Below are positions 15,988 to 23,888 of a stretch of DNA of 64,000 nucleotides, in pieces. Position 1 is the first letter of the stretch, and every line of letters begins with the position of its first letter. Below the pieces are notes generated by a model. It saw only the letters and a list, made by a program, of their open reading frames with translations, ran no database searches and was not told the origin of the DNA. Source of the stretch: Oscillospiraceae bacterium (GTDB lineage: Bacteria > Bacillota > Clostridia > Oscillospirales > Oscillospiraceae); the NCBI GenBank assembly GCA_015067835.1, contig SVLS01000001.1, forward strand, positions 1-64,000. The letters run 5' to 3'. Made by a program: the position numbers and the translations under genes.

Positions 15988-16734
15988 ATGAAAAACTTTT
16001 TAAAAACCCATTATCTCCCCCTTGGTGTACTGGCATGCAGCGTGATCACTATGTTTTTGCGGATGCTTTTGTGGATTTCGGCCATTTCCAACGATGAAAG
16101 CAATCTGCTTCCTGCAGGCACCTGGCCGGATGTAGTAAGCTGGATTATGGTGGCAATTGTGATTGCTTTACTGGTCTTTTTCTGCTGGAAGCTGAAAAAG
16201 CTGCCCAAGTACCGTGATCATTTCAAACCCTCTAAGCTGGCAGCTGCCGGTATGCTTCTCGGTGCTGTGGGCATCCTGATTTCTTCCATTTCCGCTCTTG
16301 GCGGCAACGGAGACACCTTGACCACCATCAGTGCTGTTTTGGGCATCGTTTCTGCCGGCTCGTTGGGCTATCTGGCCTTTTGCCGGATGAAAGGCGCCCG
16401 CGTTTCCATTGCATTTCACGGCATTATCTGCCTGTACCTGATGCTGTACCTGATTTCCTGCTACCGAGTGTGGAGCTCCTGCGCTCAGCTGCAGGTCTAT
16501 GCCTTTGAGCTGCTGGCTGTGGTATTTACAATGCTGGCCTGTTATCATCGTGCCGCCTTTGACACCGATCAGGGAAAACCCCGCTCCTACGCCTTTTTCT
16601 CCTGTGCTGCACTGTTTTTCTGCATTGCTGCATTGCCCGGCTGTAATAATGAAATGTTCCTTCTGGGCTGTGCCGCCTGGATGTTCACCACCCCCTGCGA
16701 CCTGACCCCGGCTGCTGAAAATGAAAAAGCTTGA
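15988..16734 (+). CDS. Multi-TM membrane protein, hypothetical
   Basis: Repeated hydrophobic segments; in operon. Confidence 0.65.
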   Translation: MKNFLKTHYLPLGVLACSVITMFLRMLLWISAISNDESNLLPAGTWPDVVSWIMVAIVIALLVFFCWKLKKLPKYRDHFKPSKLAAAGMLLGAVGILISSISALGGNGDTLTTISAVLGIVSAGSLGYLAFCRMKGARVSIAFHGIICLYLMLYLISCYRVWSSCAQLQVYAFELLAVVFTMLACYHRAAFDTDQGKPRSYAFFSCAALFFCIAALPGCNNEMFLLGCAAWMFTTPCDLTPAAENEKA

Positions 16735-18049
16735 CGCCTTGATGTTACCGGAATATGTCCGGCAATGTATGGATGCTCTGGAATCCCACGGCTTTGCCTG
16801 CTATGCAGTGGGCGGCTGCGTACGGGATATGCTTCTGGGGCTGACGCCGCAGGATTATGACCTGTGCACCAACGCATTGCCGGAGCAAATTCGCACTGTT
16901 TTTGCCGAAAAAAGACTGATTTTGAATGGCGAAAAGCACGGAACGGTGGGCGTGATAACCGATGGCGGTGTTGTGGAAATCACCACTTTTCGGTCAGAGG
17001 GCGATTATACAGACAGTCGCCATCCTGGCTGGGTGAAGTATCTGGATTCCATTGAGGCGGACCTTGCCCGGCGGGATTTCACCGTCAATGCAATGGCCTA
17101 TTCGCCTAAGCGCGCCCTTGTTGATCCCTTTGGCGGACAGCAGGATTTGCAAAACGGCATTTTGCGGGCAGTCGGCAATCCTACCGCCCGGTTTACGGAG
17201 GATGCGCTGCGCATTGTCCGGGGTATGCGTTTTGCGGTGCGTTATCAGCTCACTCTTCAGGATGATACGATGGAAGCCATGTACGCCTGTGCGTCGCTGC
17301 TGGAGCATATTGCCAAGGAGCGGATTTTTGACGAGTTATGTAAACTTCTCCTGCGAACAACAGGAGAGGATTTGCTCCGTTTTTCCGCCATTCTCGCACA
17401 AATCATCCCGGGGCTTGCGCCCACAATAGGCTTTGCGCAGCACAGCTCCCACCATTTATATGATGTCTTCACCCACACCGCCTATGTTACCGGCGGTGTG
17501 GAGGAGGAGCTTTCTCTGCGCTGGGCTGCCCTGCTCCACGATTTGGGAAAGGTGCATACCTTTACGACGGACGAAAACGGCAATGGGCATTTTTACGGTC
17601 ACGCCGCCGTCAGCGCCCAGCTGGCAGATGAGATTTTGCACCGTTTGAAAGCACCTACCGCTCTGCGGGAGGATGTGGTATTTCTCATTGCACAGCACAT
17701 GACACCTGTGCTTCCTGAGCGAAAAAGAATGCGCAGGCAGCTGAGCAAATGGGGCGCAGAGCGTCTTCAGAAGCTGCTTATGCTGCAGAAGGCGGACTTT
17801 TCTGGCAAGGGCACAGTCAACGAGGATTTTCCCTTTGATGAAACCAATGCGCTGCTGCAGGCACTTCTAGAAGAAAACAGCTGCCTGAGCTTAAAGGATT
17901 TGGCCGTCAACGGCCACGATTTGATGGCGCTTGGCTTTTCCGGCGAGGCTGTAGGGCAATGTCTGAACTGGCTGCTGCAGCAGGTGGTGGAAGAAACCCT
18001 CGAAAATGAAAAGGCGGTTTTATTGACTGCTGTTAAAAATAAGAAGTAA
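16721..18049 (+). CDS. cca: CCA tRNA nucleotidyltransferase / poly(A) polymerase family
   Basis: CYAVGGCVRDMLLGLTPQDYDLCTNA, RRDFTVNAMAY, EDALRIVRGMRFA, HD motif LHDLGK. Confidence 0.94.
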   Translation: MKKLDALMLPEYVRQCMDALESHGFACYAVGGCVRDMLLGLTPQDYDLCTNALPEQIRTVFAEKRLILNGEKHGTVGVITDGGVVEITTFRSEGDYTDSRHPGWVKYLDSIEADLARRDFTVNAMAYSPKRALVDPFGGQQDLQNGILRAVGNPTARFTEDALRIVRGMRFAVRYQLTLQDDTMEAMYACASLLEHIAKERIFDELCKLLLRTTGEDLLRFSAILAQIIPGLAPTIGFAQHSSHHLYDVFTHTAYVTGGVEEELSLRWAALLHDLGKVHTFTTDENGNGHFYGHAAVSAQLADEILHRLKAPTALREDVVFLIAQHMTPVLPERKRMRRQLSKWGAERLQKLLMLQKADFSGKGTVNEDFPFDETNALLQALLEENSCLSLKDLAVNGHDLMALGFSGEAVGQCLNWLLQQVVEETLENEKAVLLTAVKNKK

Positions 18050-18068: not shown

Positions 18069-18929
18069 ATGAAAAAGATAATTGCCTCTCTTTTGCTGCT
18101 GGCGCTGATCCTGACCGGCTGTGCCGCCCAATCCCCCAGGGAAGAAGTTGACTACCTGACTGTTCACTACATCGATGTGGGTCAGGCGGACTGTATTTTG
18201 CTGCTGGCCGGCGACACCGCAGTTTTAATTGACGGCGGCAATACGGATACCTCTGCCGAAGTGGTTTCTTATCTGCGCCGTTATGGCGTAAAAGACGTGG
18301 ATTTGATGGTCAACACCCATCCTCACGGAGATCATATCGGCGGACTGCCCGCCGTTCTTTCCGGTTTCCCGGTGGAAACGGTCTGGACCTCTACCTTGAA
18401 TTACGATTCTTATACCTTTGACCGCTTTATGAACCTGGCACGGGAGCAGGATGCCAAGATTGAGATTCCCACCCCCGGCACCGTCTATCAGGAGGATGGA
18501 TTACTTTTGACAGTTCTTGGTCCTGTGGGAACGAACTACGAGGATTTGAACGACACCTCCCTGGTACTGATGGCGCAGTTTGGCGAAAAGAAGTTCCTGT
18601 TCACCGGAGATATGGAATCCGTTGCGGAAAACCATCTTCTCACCTCGCAGGTATCCTTGAAGGCCGATGTGCTGAAGGTCGGACATCACGGCAGTTACAG
18701 CTCCACCAGCGCACCGTTTTTGAAGGCGGTTGACCCGGATTACGCCGTCATCAGCTGCGGCAGGGACAATGAATACGGTCATCCTCACCCCGGGCCTATG
18801 AAAGAACTGAAAAACCAAAATGTGGAGGTCTTCCGCACCGACTTGATGGGCAGCGTAACGATTATGACGGATGGGAAAAAGCTTTCCTTCCTTCTGGAGT
18901 ATCCTGCCGCAATGCCCAACGCTGCTTAA
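18069..18929 (+). CDS. ComEC/Rec2-like MBL-fold metallohydrolase, lipoprotein
   Basis: Lipobox LILTGCAA; HYIDVGQADCILL, NTHPHGDHIGGL, LKVGHHGSYSSTS. Confidence 0.92.
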   Translation: MKKIIASLLLLALILTGCAAQSPREEVDYLTVHYIDVGQADCILLLAGDTAVLIDGGNTDTSAEVVSYLRRYGVKDVDLMVNTHPHGDHIGGLPAVLSGFPVETVWTSTLNYDSYTFDRFMNLAREQDAKIEIPTPGTVYQEDGLLLTVLGPVGTNYEDLNDTSLVLMAQFGEKKFLFTGDMESVAENHLLTSQVSLKADVLKVGHHGSYSSTSAPFLKAVDPDYAVISCGRDNEYGHPHPGPMKELKNQNVEVFRTDLMGSVTIMTDGKKLSFLLEYPAAMPNAA

Positions 18930-18941
18930 GGCTGAATTGCT

Positions 18942-21455
18942 ATGAAAAATCACATTGTTCTGGGCATTTTGGCCCACGTGGATGCAGGCAAAACCACCCT
19001 GTCCGAAGCGCTGCTGTACCAAAGCGGAATGCGGCGCAGTCTGGGACGGGTGGACCACGGAGATGCCTATTTGGATACCCACGCGCTGGAACGCGCCAGA
19101 GGAATCACCATTTTCTCCAAGCAAGCCCTGTTTTCCACCCAAAATCGAAATATTACCCTGGTGGACACCCCCGGTCACGTGGATTTTTCCCCGGAGGCAG
19201 AGCGGACGCTGCCTATTCTGGACAGCGCCATTTTGGTCATCAGCGGTACGGACGGTATTCAGGCGCACACGCTGACCCTGTGGCAGCTGCTGCAGCGCTA
19301 TGAAATTCCCACCGTCATTTTCATCAATAAAATGGACTTATCCGGCGCAGACCGGGCAAAGCTGCTTGCCCAGCTTCAGCGGGAATTTTCCTCCGGATGC
19401 GTGGAATTTGGTGAGAATCTGGACGAAGCTTATGAAGCCGCCGCTTTATGCGAAGAAGCGCTGCTGGAATCCTATTTGCAAACCGGAGCGGTTGCACAGC
19501 CCGATTTGCAGCGTTTGGTCAGCCAGCGGAAGCTGTTCCCCTGTGTTTTCGGCTCTGCGCTGCATCTGGAGGGCGTCGACCGTCTTCTGGAGATTTTGGA
19601 TCTCTATTTGCCTCAGCCCCAATGGGGAGATGCCTTTGGCGCACAGGTTTACAAGATTTCCCGGGATGCACAAGGCAATCGCCTGACCTGGCTGAAGGTC
19701 ACAGGAGGAAAGCTTCCCGTCCGTTCTCAGATATGTTATGTAAACCGCTCAGGGGACACTGTTGAGGAAAAAGCCATTCAGCTTCGCCTGTACTCCGCCG
19801 AGAAGTTCACCCCTGTGGATTGTCTTCTCCCAGGACAAGTTGCCGCCGTCACCGGTCTTACCGGCACCTATGCCGGGCAGGGTCTTGGTGCAACGCCTGA
19901 CAGTCCTCTGCCCACCTTGGAGCCGGTTATGACATATCGGGTAAATCTCGTCGGCGGCGTTGACCCGGCCGTTGCCTTACCCCAATTACGGCAGTTGGAG
20001 GAAGAAGATCCCATGCTCCGTCTGGTATGGGAAGGCGGGAAAATTTACATCCAGATTATGGGTAAGGTGCAGCTGGAGGTTTTTCGCAGTCTTGTGAAGG
20101 AGCGCTTCAACCTGGAGGTCACCTTGGATGCCGGGCGGATTTTCTATAAGGAAACCATCGCCCAGGCTGTGGAAGGTGTTGGTCATTTTGAACCTTTGCG
20201 GCACTATGCAGAAGTGCATCTGCTGATGGAACCGCTGCCCCAGGGCGCAGGTCTGGAATTCTGTTCCACCTGTCCGACGGATTTTCTGGACAACACCTAC
20301 CAAAAGCTGATTATGACCCATTTCAAGGAAAAGACTCATCGGGGTGTGCTCACCGGCGGACCGATTACGGATATGAAAATCACGCTGGTGTCCGGTCGCG
20401 CCTATATTGAGCATACTGTTGGCGGTGATTTCCGGCAAGCTACCTACCGCGCCATCCGTCAGGGCTTAATGAAGGCGCAATCCATCCTGCTTGAGCCTTG
20501 GTATCGCTTTGTTTTGACCGTGCCCACACCCCAAATCGGGCGTGCCATCACGGATATCCGGGCAATGAGCGGTGAAATGGAGCCGCCGGAAAATCTGGGT
20601 GACTATTCCGTTTTGCAGGGAATTGTGCCGGCTTCGGAATTGGAGGATTATCCGGTGCAGGTCGCCGCCTACACCCAAGGCTTAGGGCGTATGCAGCTTG
20701 CGTTGGATGGATACAAGCCCTGTCATAACACCGATGCTGTGGTGGAGGCGCTGGCCTATGACCCGGAAGCCGATCTGGAAAACACGCCGGACTCCGTATT
20801 CTGCGCCCACGGTGCAGGCTTTACTGTCAAGTGGCATCAGGTTGCGGAGTATATGCATCTGGAAAGCTGTATGAAGGCAAAGCAAGCGCCTCAAACAATC
20901 CCCCAGAATCTTCGTCCGGAGGATAAGGAGCTGGAGGCCATTATGCTCCGGGAATTTGGCCCGCAGAGCACAACCCTGTACCGCCCGACACCCCGTTCTG
21001 ACAAGGAGGATTCGCGTCACATCAAGCCCCTGAAGCAGCAGTATCTGATTGTGGACGGCTACAATATTATCTTCGCCTGGGATGAGCTTGCTCAAATTGC
21101 CAAAGAAGATTTAGAAAATGCCCGGCGGCGGCTGTGCGACATACTAAGCGACTTTTCCGGTTTCCGGAAATGGAAAATCGTTGTGGTTTTTGACGGCTAT
21201 AAGGTCAAGGGAAATCTGGGCGAAAAGCTGCAGCATCACAACATTCAGGTGGTCTACACCAAGGAAAACGAAACCGGGGACAGCTATATTGAAAGTCTGG
21301 TGGCACAAATCGGCTCCAACTACAATCTGCGGGTCGCCACCTCTGATTCTCTGGTTCAGCTGGGGGCTTTGCGCTCCGGTGTGCTGCGGATGAGTGCCCG
21401 GGAATTAAAGTGGGAGATTGATCAGGCAAAAAAGGAAATGACACAGCACTATTAA
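18942..21455 (+). CDS. Tet(M)/EF-G-like ribosomal GTPase with C-terminal NYN (Rae1/YacP-like) ribonuclease domain
   Basis: GILAHVDAGKTTLSEALL, RGITIFSKQALF, LVDTPGHVDF, INKMDL; C-terminus YLIVDGYNIIFAWDEL...IVVVFDGYKVKG...VVYTKENETGDSYIE...RVATSDSLVQ...RMSARELKWEI. Confidence 0.92.
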   Translation: MKNHIVLGILAHVDAGKTTLSEALLYQSGMRRSLGRVDHGDAYLDTHALERARGITIFSKQALFSTQNRNITLVDTPGHVDFSPEAERTLPILDSAILVISGTDGIQAHTLTLWQLLQRYEIPTVIFINKMDLSGADRAKLLAQLQREFSSGCVEFGENLDEAYEAAALCEEALLESYLQTGAVAQPDLQRLVSQRKLFPCVFGSALHLEGVDRLLEILDLYLPQPQWGDAFGAQVYKISRDAQGNRLTWLKVTGGKLPVRSQICYVNRSGDTVEEKAIQLRLYSAEKFTPVDCLLPGQVAAVTGLTGTYAGQGLGATPDSPLPTLEPVMTYRVNLVGGVDPAVALPQLRQLEEEDPMLRLVWEGGKIYIQIMGKVQLEVFRSLVKERFNLEVTLDAGRIFYKETIAQAVEGVGHFEPLRHYAEVHLLMEPLPQGAGLEFCSTCPTDFLDNTYQKLIMTHFKEKTHRGVLTGGPITDMKITLVSGRAYIEHTVGGDFRQATYRAIRQGLMKAQSILLEPWYRFVLTVPTPQIGRAITDIRAMSGEMEPPENLGDYSVLQGIVPASELEDYPVQVAAYTQGLGRMQLALDGYKPCHNTDAVVEALAYDPEADLENTPDSVFCAHGAGFTVKWHQVAEYMHLESCMKAKQAPQTIPQNLRPEDKELEAIMLREFGPQSTTLYRPTPRSDKEDSRHIKPLKQQYLIVDGYNIIFAWDELAQIAKEDLENARRRLCDILSDFSGFRKWKIVVVFDGYKVKGNLGEKLQHHNIQVVYTKENETGDSYIESLVAQIGSNYNLRVATSDSLVQLGALRSGVLRMSARELKWEIDQAKKEMTQHY

Positions 21456-21460
21456 ATGAC

Positions 21461-21494
21461 AAAATCCGCACCTGCTTTCACAGGTGCGGATTTT
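21461..21494. terminator. Terminator between convergent genes
   Basis: AAAATCCGCACCTG...CAGGTGCGGATTTT. Confidence 0.75.
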
Positions 21495-21515: not shown

Positions 21516-23888
21516 TTATCCTGCGTGATACATCTGGCTGTACAGGATGTATCTGTAATTGTAGGGATACAGCCGCTGCACATCTTCATCCAGCTTCTGC
21601 GGCTCACCGCCGTTCCACTGGTACAGGTCACCACCGGAATTCTCGCTGTAATCGGTCAGGTACAAAAACCGACCATCTGCCGTAAGATCGATATTGTCTG
21701 TATTCATTTCCTCGGCGATTTTAGTCTTCTCCCCGTTTTCATAAACATTCAGGGTTGCATTGTCGCCATCTCTTTCGGTAATGAAGAAAATTCTGCTCCA
21801 GTCCAGCTGCATCGCAGCGGTATGACCAAAAACCTCGTCGGCAATTTTCTTGCTGCCGCCATTTTCCCAGATTTTCAGCGTGCCTCCGGATTTTTCGCTG
21901 TAGTCCGTTGAATAGAGAATCTTGTTCCAATCTCTGGATACCGTAATGCGATAGCGGCTAACATCATCATCCACCTTCTGGGACTCCCCATTGCTGTACA
22001 AATACAAGGTGCCGCTTTCCTTTTCACTGTTATAATCCGTTATATACAGCAGCTTGTCGGCATCTTCATTGTAAGAATCGATGGTGTACACATCATTGGC
22101 AATTTTCTTTCCGTTGATATACAAATCGCCGATTCCGTCTTTGTAATTCTTGTAATAGCAGTACCGGTCATTTCCCAGGAAGTAACCACTGTAGGACGAA
22201 ACATCGCTGGCGTACTTTTCCGCCTTTTCCACAACGCCGTTATTGATGGCAATGCGGTACAGGTCGCCCACGGATTCATTCACATCCGTCATAAAGAAAA
22301 TCTGCGTGCCGTTATCGTTCAAATCAAAGCTTGTTGCCTCGTCGTTATCGATGGCACTGACAGCACTTCTGCTGGCCACATAGTAGCTTTTTGCTGTATT
22401 CAGCGCCTCCTTTACCATATCTTCCACCTGATAGGCGTAGCTTACCTCGGAGAGCTTAATCTTCTCAATATTTGCCTTCTGGCGTGCCTGGTATACAACC
22501 ACCGGAGCCTCATATGCAAACTGATAAGAGCTGCTGTAGTAAGAGTCATATACAAAGCCTTCTGTCAGCTTCACTGCTTCCTTGCCGTCAAAGAAGAAGA
22601 GGGTATACTGGCTCTGCTCTATGGTTTGATTCTTCAGAGAATTCCGCAGGGAATCCCGGTCTTGCTTCTCCCAGTAGGCGGTATAAGCCTGCTGATAAAC
22701 CGCATATTCCTGCTGATAGACTTCATAGGCCGCATAGTACTCATCCCAGGTGTCATACATCCAGGAATAGGGTGTGGAGGGTTGTTGCGGATAGTCTGTT
22801 ATTAAGGCATCCTCGGCAGCCTTGTCGTCAAGAACATAATCCATCAGAGGCACGGTTTCCGTCTCGGCTTCAACATAATAAAGCTCGCCGGATTCGTAAA
22901 TCTTGAGAACCTCCTTGACGCCGGAGGCAATCTTTACCTTCTCCTGACCTTCTGCCTGCTTGTAGAGCACATCTTCCTTCATATAGTACAGAACGGTCAT
23001 ATCCTCGTTGAGTCTGTACCAGGAGGATGCGCCACTGGCAATCTTTATTGCTTCCTGGCCCAGGTACTTCAGATAATAGGTATAGGTGCTGTCCGTCTTA
23101 TCCTGAACGCGGTAGCCCAGCTTATTTCCATCGTCAGACACGCTGAAATCATACTCGCTAACTTCAGAATCGATTTTCTCTTTCTCATCCTTGTCCACAA
23201 AGTACTGGTACAGACCGCCGTCTTTCTTGACATAGGTAACCACCGTACCGGCTTCATTAACACGGAAATTGACAATCTCAGAGTCTACCTTTACTGCCTC
23301 GGCTTCCGGGTTTTTCGTGGAGCGATGGTACAAATTGATGCCGTCATCGCCGGCCTCATATTTATCCGGGAAGAAAATGCGGCTTCCATCCTTACTGAAA
23401 GCGATTCCATTGCCAATTGCTGTCACTGCGGTATCGCTATTATTTGCCAAGCTGTCCGTTACCTGCCAGGGCTCACCACCGGTTTCCAGGTTTAAGAAGT
23501 ACAGCTGGTCATCCTTGATATAAATTGCTGCGCTTTGCTGTGTTGCCGCGCCACCCTTAAACAGCAGCAAAACCACCACAACTATCGTCAATACAGCAAG
23601 ACCAATGCCCCCAAAGAGCAGAATCTTCGGGAACTTCTTCTTTTGGGCAGGCTTCTCTTCCACCGGAGCTGCTGTTACAGGCTGCGCCACCGGTTCAACA
23701 GGCTGTACTGCGGGTTCAACCGGCTTCGTCACCAGCGCTGCACCGCAGCCCTGACAAAAAGACGCTCCAACCACAGCCGGCCGACCGCAAACAGGGCAGA
23801 ATGTGGTCTGAGGAATAGGTGTTCCGCAGCTGTCGCAGAACTTGGTTCCCTCTGCCAGCTGTTTATTACAATTCGGACAAGTAGGCAT
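21516..23888 (-). CDS. Double zinc-ribbon, single-TM protein with large extracytoplasmic propeller-like region
   Basis: CPNCNKQLAEGTKFCDSCG and CPVCGRPAVVGASFCQGCG; TM ILLFGGIGLAVLTIVVVVLLLF; repeated ITDY/YLTDYSE-SGG-LY blades. Confidence 0.8.
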   Translation of the reverse strand: MPTCPNCNKQLAEGTKFCDSCGTPIPQTTFCPVCGRPAVVGASFCQGCGAALVTKPVEPAVQPVEPVAQPVTAAPVEEKPAQKKKFPKILLFGGIGLAVLTIVVVVLLLFKGGAATQQSAAIYIKDDQLYFLNLETGGEPWQVTDSLANNSDTAVTAIGNGIAFSKDGSRIFFPDKYEAGDDGINLYHRSTKNPEAEAVKVDSEIVNFRVNEAGTVVTYVKKDGGLYQYFVDKDEKEKIDSEVSEYDFSVSDDGNKLGYRVQDKTDSTYTYYLKYLGQEAIKIASGASSWYRLNEDMTVLYYMKEDVLYKQAEGQEKVKIASGVKEVLKIYESGELYYVEAETETVPLMDYVLDDKAAEDALITDYPQQPSTPYSWMYDTWDEYYAAYEVYQQEYAVYQQAYTAYWEKQDRDSLRNSLKNQTIEQSQYTLFFFDGKEAVKLTEGFVYDSYYSSSYQFAYEAPVVVYQARQKANIEKIKLSEVSYAYQVEDMVKEALNTAKSYYVASRSAVSAIDNDEATSFDLNDNGTQIFFMTDVNESVGDLYRIAINNGVVEKAEKYASDVSSYSGYFLGNDRYCYYKNYKDGIGDLYINGKKIANDVYTIDSYNEDADKLLYITDYNSEKESGTLYLYSNGESQKVDDDVSRYRITVSRDWNKILYSTDYSEKSGGTLKIWENGGSKKIADEVFGHTAAMQLDWSRIFFITERDGDNATLNVYENGEKTKIAEEMNTDNIDLTADGRFLYLTDYSENSGGDLYQWNGGEPQKLDEDVQRLYPYNYRYILYSQMYHAG

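Follow-up and report, generated by a model that had tools for sequence, protein, structure and literature searches.

A widespread clostridial fusion of an EF-G/Tet-type GTPase and a YacP/Rae1-type nuclease domain, a candidate quality-control factor for stalled ribosomes

What is the function of a protein in which a GTPase of EF-G/Tet architecture runs directly into a ribonuclease domain of the YacP/Rae1 (NYN) type? The question is raised by a gene at positions 18942..21455 (+) of the window, by which we mean the whole stretch of 64,000 nucleotides of Oscillospiraceae DNA analyzed here. The gene forms one uninterrupted reading frame of 837 codons. A preliminary description had proposed a GTP-driven rescue or quality-control factor rather than a tetracycline-resistance determinant, and had warned that a frameshift might have joined two genes. 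Using Pfam and reading-frame analysis, we confirmed an intact fusion carrying all the motifs quoted there. A frameshift or assembly artefact is ruled out by the occurrence of this fusion as an open frame in many independent genomes (more than 100, from many clostridial families); in the window, moreover, an intrinsic-terminator-like hairpin of 14 pairs (21461..21494, +) lies 6 bases past the stop codon. The architecture as such is not new. Tet proteins with a C-terminal YacP-like NYN domain were described in ten clostridial species by Atkinson 2015, with RNase-assisted tetracycline resistance as the proposed function (PMC4342817), and the window gene, which encodes a Tet-like translational GTPase with such a domain in a clostridium, has the identical domain architecture and is evidently a member of that group.

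The G domain (residues 2-225; 18945..19616) matches GTP_EFTU over its whole length (E 2e-52) and carries the motifs AHVDAGKTTL, RGITI, DTPGH, and NKMD. Domain II (residues 233-310; 19638..19871) was recognized by a weak match to EF-G_D2 and from the structure model, and domain III (residues 328-396; 19923..20129) by a weak match to EFG_III. Domain IV (residues 399-513; 20136..20480) and domain V (residues 516-596; 20487..20729) match EFG_IV (E 7e-19) and EFG_C (E 4e-16), respectively. With G1-G4 motifs and EF-G domains I-V present, the protein belongs to the translational GTPases of the EF2/EF-G superfamily. For residues 5-594, the nearest solved structures by sequence are Tet(O), EF-G, and Tet(M), and a Foldseek search with the AlphaFold model returned EF-G on ribosomes as top matches. 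This model, built from 23 sequences, has a mean pLDDT of 83 and a pTM of 0.64 and consists of two folded halves. The GTPase half ends in a subfamily-specific tail (residues 591-642; 20712..20867) of the pattern Y.PC + DSVFCxHGAG..V.W..V..xxH, in which cysteine and histidine residues are conserved and which also terminates the unfused members of the family. C594, C621, H623, and H639, conserved within tail residues 591-639 (20712-20858), could form a metal site. The two halves are connected by a linker (residues 647-697; 20880..21032) with one short conserved helix; its pLDDT falls below 50 at residues 647-664 and 671-697, and the model suggests that these ~50 residues are probably disordered and flexible.

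The C-terminal half (residues 702-836; 21045..21449) matches NYN_YacP with an E-value of 2.7e-43 and 148 bits, far above the cut-off of 24.6. Its four acidic residues D705, D751, D780, and D802 align (E 5e-23) with D7, D53, D81, and D104 of Bacillus subtilis YacP (5mq8/5mq9), the latter numbering being counted by hand from the alignment, so that the catalytic aspartates, whose loss would have spoken against a nuclease, are retained. All four are invariant in 68 of 68 fused proteins. Rae1, a nuclease attacking mRNA in the ribosomal A site (PMC6613710), thus shares with the window protein the NYN_YacP domain, the acidic residues, and the occurrence as one copy per genome. Rae1 is small and standalone, whereas the window domain follows a GTPase in the same chain. 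Its match breaks off around residue 139 of Rae1, at profile position 137-143 of 166, so that the C-terminal segment with the R166 region is lacking. In B. subtilis, the R166P variant of Rae1 behaves as a loss of function (PMC6613710). Some fused proteins of other families extend to profile position 164-165 and keep this segment.

To follow the distribution of the fusion, we analyzed 201 genomes of the window's family, 399 of the phylum, and 245 of the class. NYN_YacP was found in 127 of the 201 family genomes, where the open frames are ~780 aa or longer and hence fused; the exceptions are a broken copy in G132 and a few short frames, most of them near contig ends. In the phylum and class samples, the NYN_YacP frame is, with few exceptions, either ~850-950 aa or ~170-210 aa long. 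Positive Bacillota genomes nearly always carry a single NYN_YacP, fused or standalone; two matches were seen in G132, G423, G528, G719, G722, G784, and G825. The preliminary description had asked whether there is a separate yacP; none exists in the window genome, the fusion being its sole NYN_YacP gene. With one such domain per positive genome, the fusion, judged from these sequences, takes the place of standalone Rae1. A profile search found the GTPase in none of 15 NYN-less family genomes, and the fusion therefore appears to come and go as a unit. Among named genomes, a scan identified at least 593 relatives. Among the matches listed, the best come from Oscillospiraceae, with Candidatus Faecousia as the nearest (64% over the C-terminal part), and Lachnospiraceae, Monoglobus, and Christensenella are also represented.

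"Tet(M)-like," the term of the preliminary description, fits the domain order of the GTPase but is otherwise loose. The protein has domains I-V and the G motifs in common with Tet(M), Tet(O), and Otr(A), yet identity to Tet(M) and Tet(O) is only ~28-30%, and its score of 393 bits against NCBIfam tet_protect is about half of the 775-bit cut-off. It differs from these proteins by the added FCxHG tail and nuclease, by the tip of domain IV, and by its position in the tree. Elongation factor G has the same five-domain fold; the window genome possesses EF-G-like genes of its own, e.g., C14, to which the fusion protein has ~26-39% identity in separate segments and from which it differs in tip sequence. 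When 80 chosen genomes were searched with a profile covering the GTPase and its FCxHG tail, fused proteins scored 1072-1104 bits and unfused proteins of 640-670 aa scored 758-821 bits, compared with ~360-436 bits for Tet-type proteins and up to ~230 bits for EF-G. In a tree rooted with EF-G, Tet(M, O, S, W, Q, B(P)) and Otr(A) form one clade (support 99/88), and fused and unfused members together form a separate one (100/99); EF-G sits on a long branch, which makes the position of the root less sure than the separation of these two groups. The window GTPase accordingly lies outside the Tet clade, and membership in the TetB(P) or Otr(A) branch is ruled out by the same tree. A clade of unfused relatives (L210-L221; 638-654 aa) spans several families and displays an SVFCSKG-type tail and the same domain-IV tip.

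Tet proteins dislodge tetracycline with loops of domain IV (PMC4342817). In the window protein, the tip segment of this domain (residues 485-509; 20394..20468) reads GRAYIEHTVGGDFRQATYRAIRQGL and the family consensus is GRAHLKHTEGGDFRQATYRAVRQGL; both differ from the Tet(M) tip, GLYYSPVSTPADFR. Tet(M) residues Y506, S508, P509, and V510 are replaced by A487, I489, E490, and H491 in the window and by A, L/V, K, and H in the family. The tree and the tip thus support the view of the preliminary description that the gene is not a tetracycline-resistance determinant. Within the family, the tip residues H, K, H, T, E, G, G, D, F, and R are each conserved in 65-68 of 68 fused proteins, and unfused members have the same motif with a variable E. 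The window tip (AYIEHTV) itself deviates at Y488, E490, and V493, where H and K are otherwise found in 67 and E in 65 of the 68 proteins. Y488 and E490 occur in the window copy alone when compared with the 67 other fused proteins, and V493 is rare. Since three genomes of the same genus keep the motif (AHLRHTEGG, AHQKHTEGG, and GHLKHTEGG), the copy of the window genome may be altered or under relaxation.

Both halves of the fusion point to an essentially single origin. All fused GTPases group together with the copy from Ligilactobacillus salivarius (99/98), and the data are compatible with a single fused clade (p-AU 0.36). The NYN domains of fused proteins likewise form one clade (100/99), in which the standalone domain of G826 is nested. 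G826 has no GTPase upstream of this domain and is a probable case of GTPase loss from the fusion. Conversely, the L. salivarius megaplasmid copy, which is nested in the fused clade, terminates directly behind the FCxHG tail, and no NYN remnant is recognizable beyond it, a probable loss of the nuclease. These trees suggest that NYN joined the GTPase essentially once, with at least one later NYN loss and one GTPase loss. The fusion is a widespread chromosomal gene. The L. salivarius GTPase without nuclease (L157:5980-7914) is annotated as TetM/TetW/TetO/TetS tetracycline resistance, which is probably a misnomer.

The genomic neighborhood of the window gene is mostly unconserved. A gene for a metallo-beta-lactamase-fold protein (18069..18929, +) ends 12 bases upstream, a gap so short that the two are probably on one transcript, and a CCA-adding tRNA nucleotidyltransferase gene (16721..18049, +) precedes it; neither neighbor is kept past close relatives. 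The exception to this poor conservation is ylmH. It lies directly 3' of the fused gene at seven named loci and divergently beside the fused gene L110 and the unfused gene L220, and Pfam confirmed YlmH_RBD, with or without S4, in all three ylmH neighbors scanned. Of 111 family genomes with both genes, 25 (12 genera) have ylmH immediately downstream on the same strand, the YlmH_RBD match starting 189-317 bases after the NYN match. Random placement would predict ~0.02 such adjacencies, a figure that overstates independence because the 25 genomes are related; they do not amount to 25 independent events, but they strongly indicate that part of the family has conserved the two genes as a pair. The two genes also co-occur: ylmH is present in 111 of 127 genomes with and 40 of 74 without NYN_YacP (Fisher p 4e-7, with no correction for kinship or completeness). 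In the window genome, no ylmH adjoins the fusion, and the linkage is absent from the window's genus. YlmH is a factor of bacterial ribosome-associated quality control (RQC) that supports alanine tailing (PMC11317155); the paper makes no mention of Rae1, NYN, or TetM. The linkage in relatives thus favors a rescue or quality-control role, as the preliminary description had supposed.

Other components of these pathways are common in the family. NFACT_N (RqcH family) was detected in 187 of 201 genomes, the window's included, and SmpB in 175. In the window genome (G000, 90.6% complete), we found neither smpB nor ylmH, and no tmRNA scored above the Rfam cut-off. As all three same-genus genomes contain smpB and ylmH, these are most likely assembly gaps, and the idea that the fusion substitutes for trans-translation was rejected on the grounds of smpB presence in these three genomes and in the family.

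We rate the chances as roughly even that the fusion is a GTP-driven A-site endonuclease for stalled ribosomes and not a tetracycline-resistance determinant. It would act as a chromosomal translation factor on paused ribosomes: judging from what is known of the families, the GTPase part would bind the factor site and the domain-IV tip would enter the A site. GTP hydrolysis might then cause domain IV to leave, and the NYN domain, tethered by its flexible linker of ~50 residues, would cut the mRNA there once the A site is empty. Trans-translation (SmpB/tmRNA) or quality control by RqcH/YlmH could then take over the truncated complex. Cleavage in an mRNA-filled A site is required before tmRNA-SmpB can act (PMC12320835). 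The sequences themselves bear out the fusion, its intact motifs, its essentially single origin, its taking the place of Rae1, and, in relatives, the pairing with ylmH. That the protein binds ribosomes, enters the A site, and cleaves mRNA there we infer by analogy with the families concerned. Because a Tet-type domain IV and Rae1 share the A site, the two would have to act in turn or on neighboring ribosomes. The predicted flexibility of the linker permits either, and the order in which domain IV and NYN act is guesswork. The near-invariance of the G motifs (AHVDAGKTT, RGITI, DTPGH, and NKMD over 68 fused proteins, with AHVDAGKTT nearly invariant and K and D of NKMD invariant) and that of the NYN acidic residues speak in favor of the model. 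The deviating tip of the window copy, the missing C-terminal region of Rae1, and the partial ylmH linkage, absent from the genus, speak against it.

The same nuclease could instead serve regulated decay as in Rae1, cutting particular mRNAs during translation, with the GTPase as a ribosome anchor only and no rescue involved. The single NYN_YacP per genome would make the fusion the Rae1 equivalent, and the standalone domain of G826 suggests that the nuclease may survive loss of the GTPase. However, GTPase motifs and domain-IV tip are conserved almost absolutely, which speaks for an active GTP-driven function; the ylmH linkage also points elsewhere, and we consider this reading unlikely. Ribosome protection against tetracycline or another A-site antibiotic, with the nuclease as an accessory, corresponds to the interpretation of Atkinson 2015. 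It draws on the domain order shared with Tet(M)/Tet(O), on tet_protect as the top HMM match, and on automatic annotation of relatives as TetM/TetW/TetO/TetS family. Tetracycline protection is nevertheless disfavored by the tree, the unconserved Tet(M) tip residues, the low score, and the chromosomal, single-copy setting. In addition, three relatives in a plasmid collection lack the predicted-resistance flag that Tet(M)/(O)/(W)/(Q)/B(P) carry there, and we regard protection as quite improbable.

A role in ribosome or tRNA maturation, in which the GTPase would bind pre-ribosomes or free subunits and NYN would trim rRNA or tRNA, seems more remote still. The first predictions for NYN domains placed them in the maturation of rRNA and tRNA (cited in PMC4342817), and the window fusion stands in one run with the gene for the CCA-adding enzyme, which directly abuts the fusion gene in the relative L067. 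This direct linkage is seen only in the window and that one close locus, and a third of the family genomes sampled do without the fusion, which would be unexpected of a core maturation enzyme.

Returning to the stalled-ribosome model, one may go further and suppose that a large part of the Clostridia swapped Rae1 for a self-contained device that clears ribosomes, in which a dedicated non-Tet GTPase would open the A site for a tethered mRNA-cutting nuclease and so feed RqcH/YlmH; we hold this extension to be doubtful. Relative to Atkinson 2015 (PMC4342817), where the group was filed under Tet, we add that the gene is widespread, that it is nearly always the sole NYN_YacP of its genome, that it belongs to its own clade outside Tet including unfused proteins, that its origin is essentially single, and that some members of the family have ylmH beside it. 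If the model is true, a common gut-clostridial gene that is sometimes automatically annotated as tetracycline resistance is a quality-control factor and resistance surveys over-count, and the mRNA endonucleases of stalled Gram-positive ribosomes become directly testable with one protein.

The fusion family shows little sign of mobility compared with Tet(M)/Tet(O)/Otr(A), and carriage on mobile elements was rejected, as only isolated plasmid- or phage-labeled records were found. Two unannotated "Bacteriophage sp." records from human feces (MT835563.1 and MT835514.1) contain the linker and NYN part and are probably bacterial or prophage-flank DNA. Some plasmid-labeled records, e.g., NZ_CP149687.1 of Clostridioides difficile, resemble chromosomal segments in that they carry sigH and tuf along with a standalone NYN gene. 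Downstream of the fusion in the window, a convergent gene (21516-23888, -) encodes a protein of 790 aa whose N-terminal region bears zinc-ribbon-like motifs; it also has a likely transmembrane segment, and its C-terminal part is repetitive.
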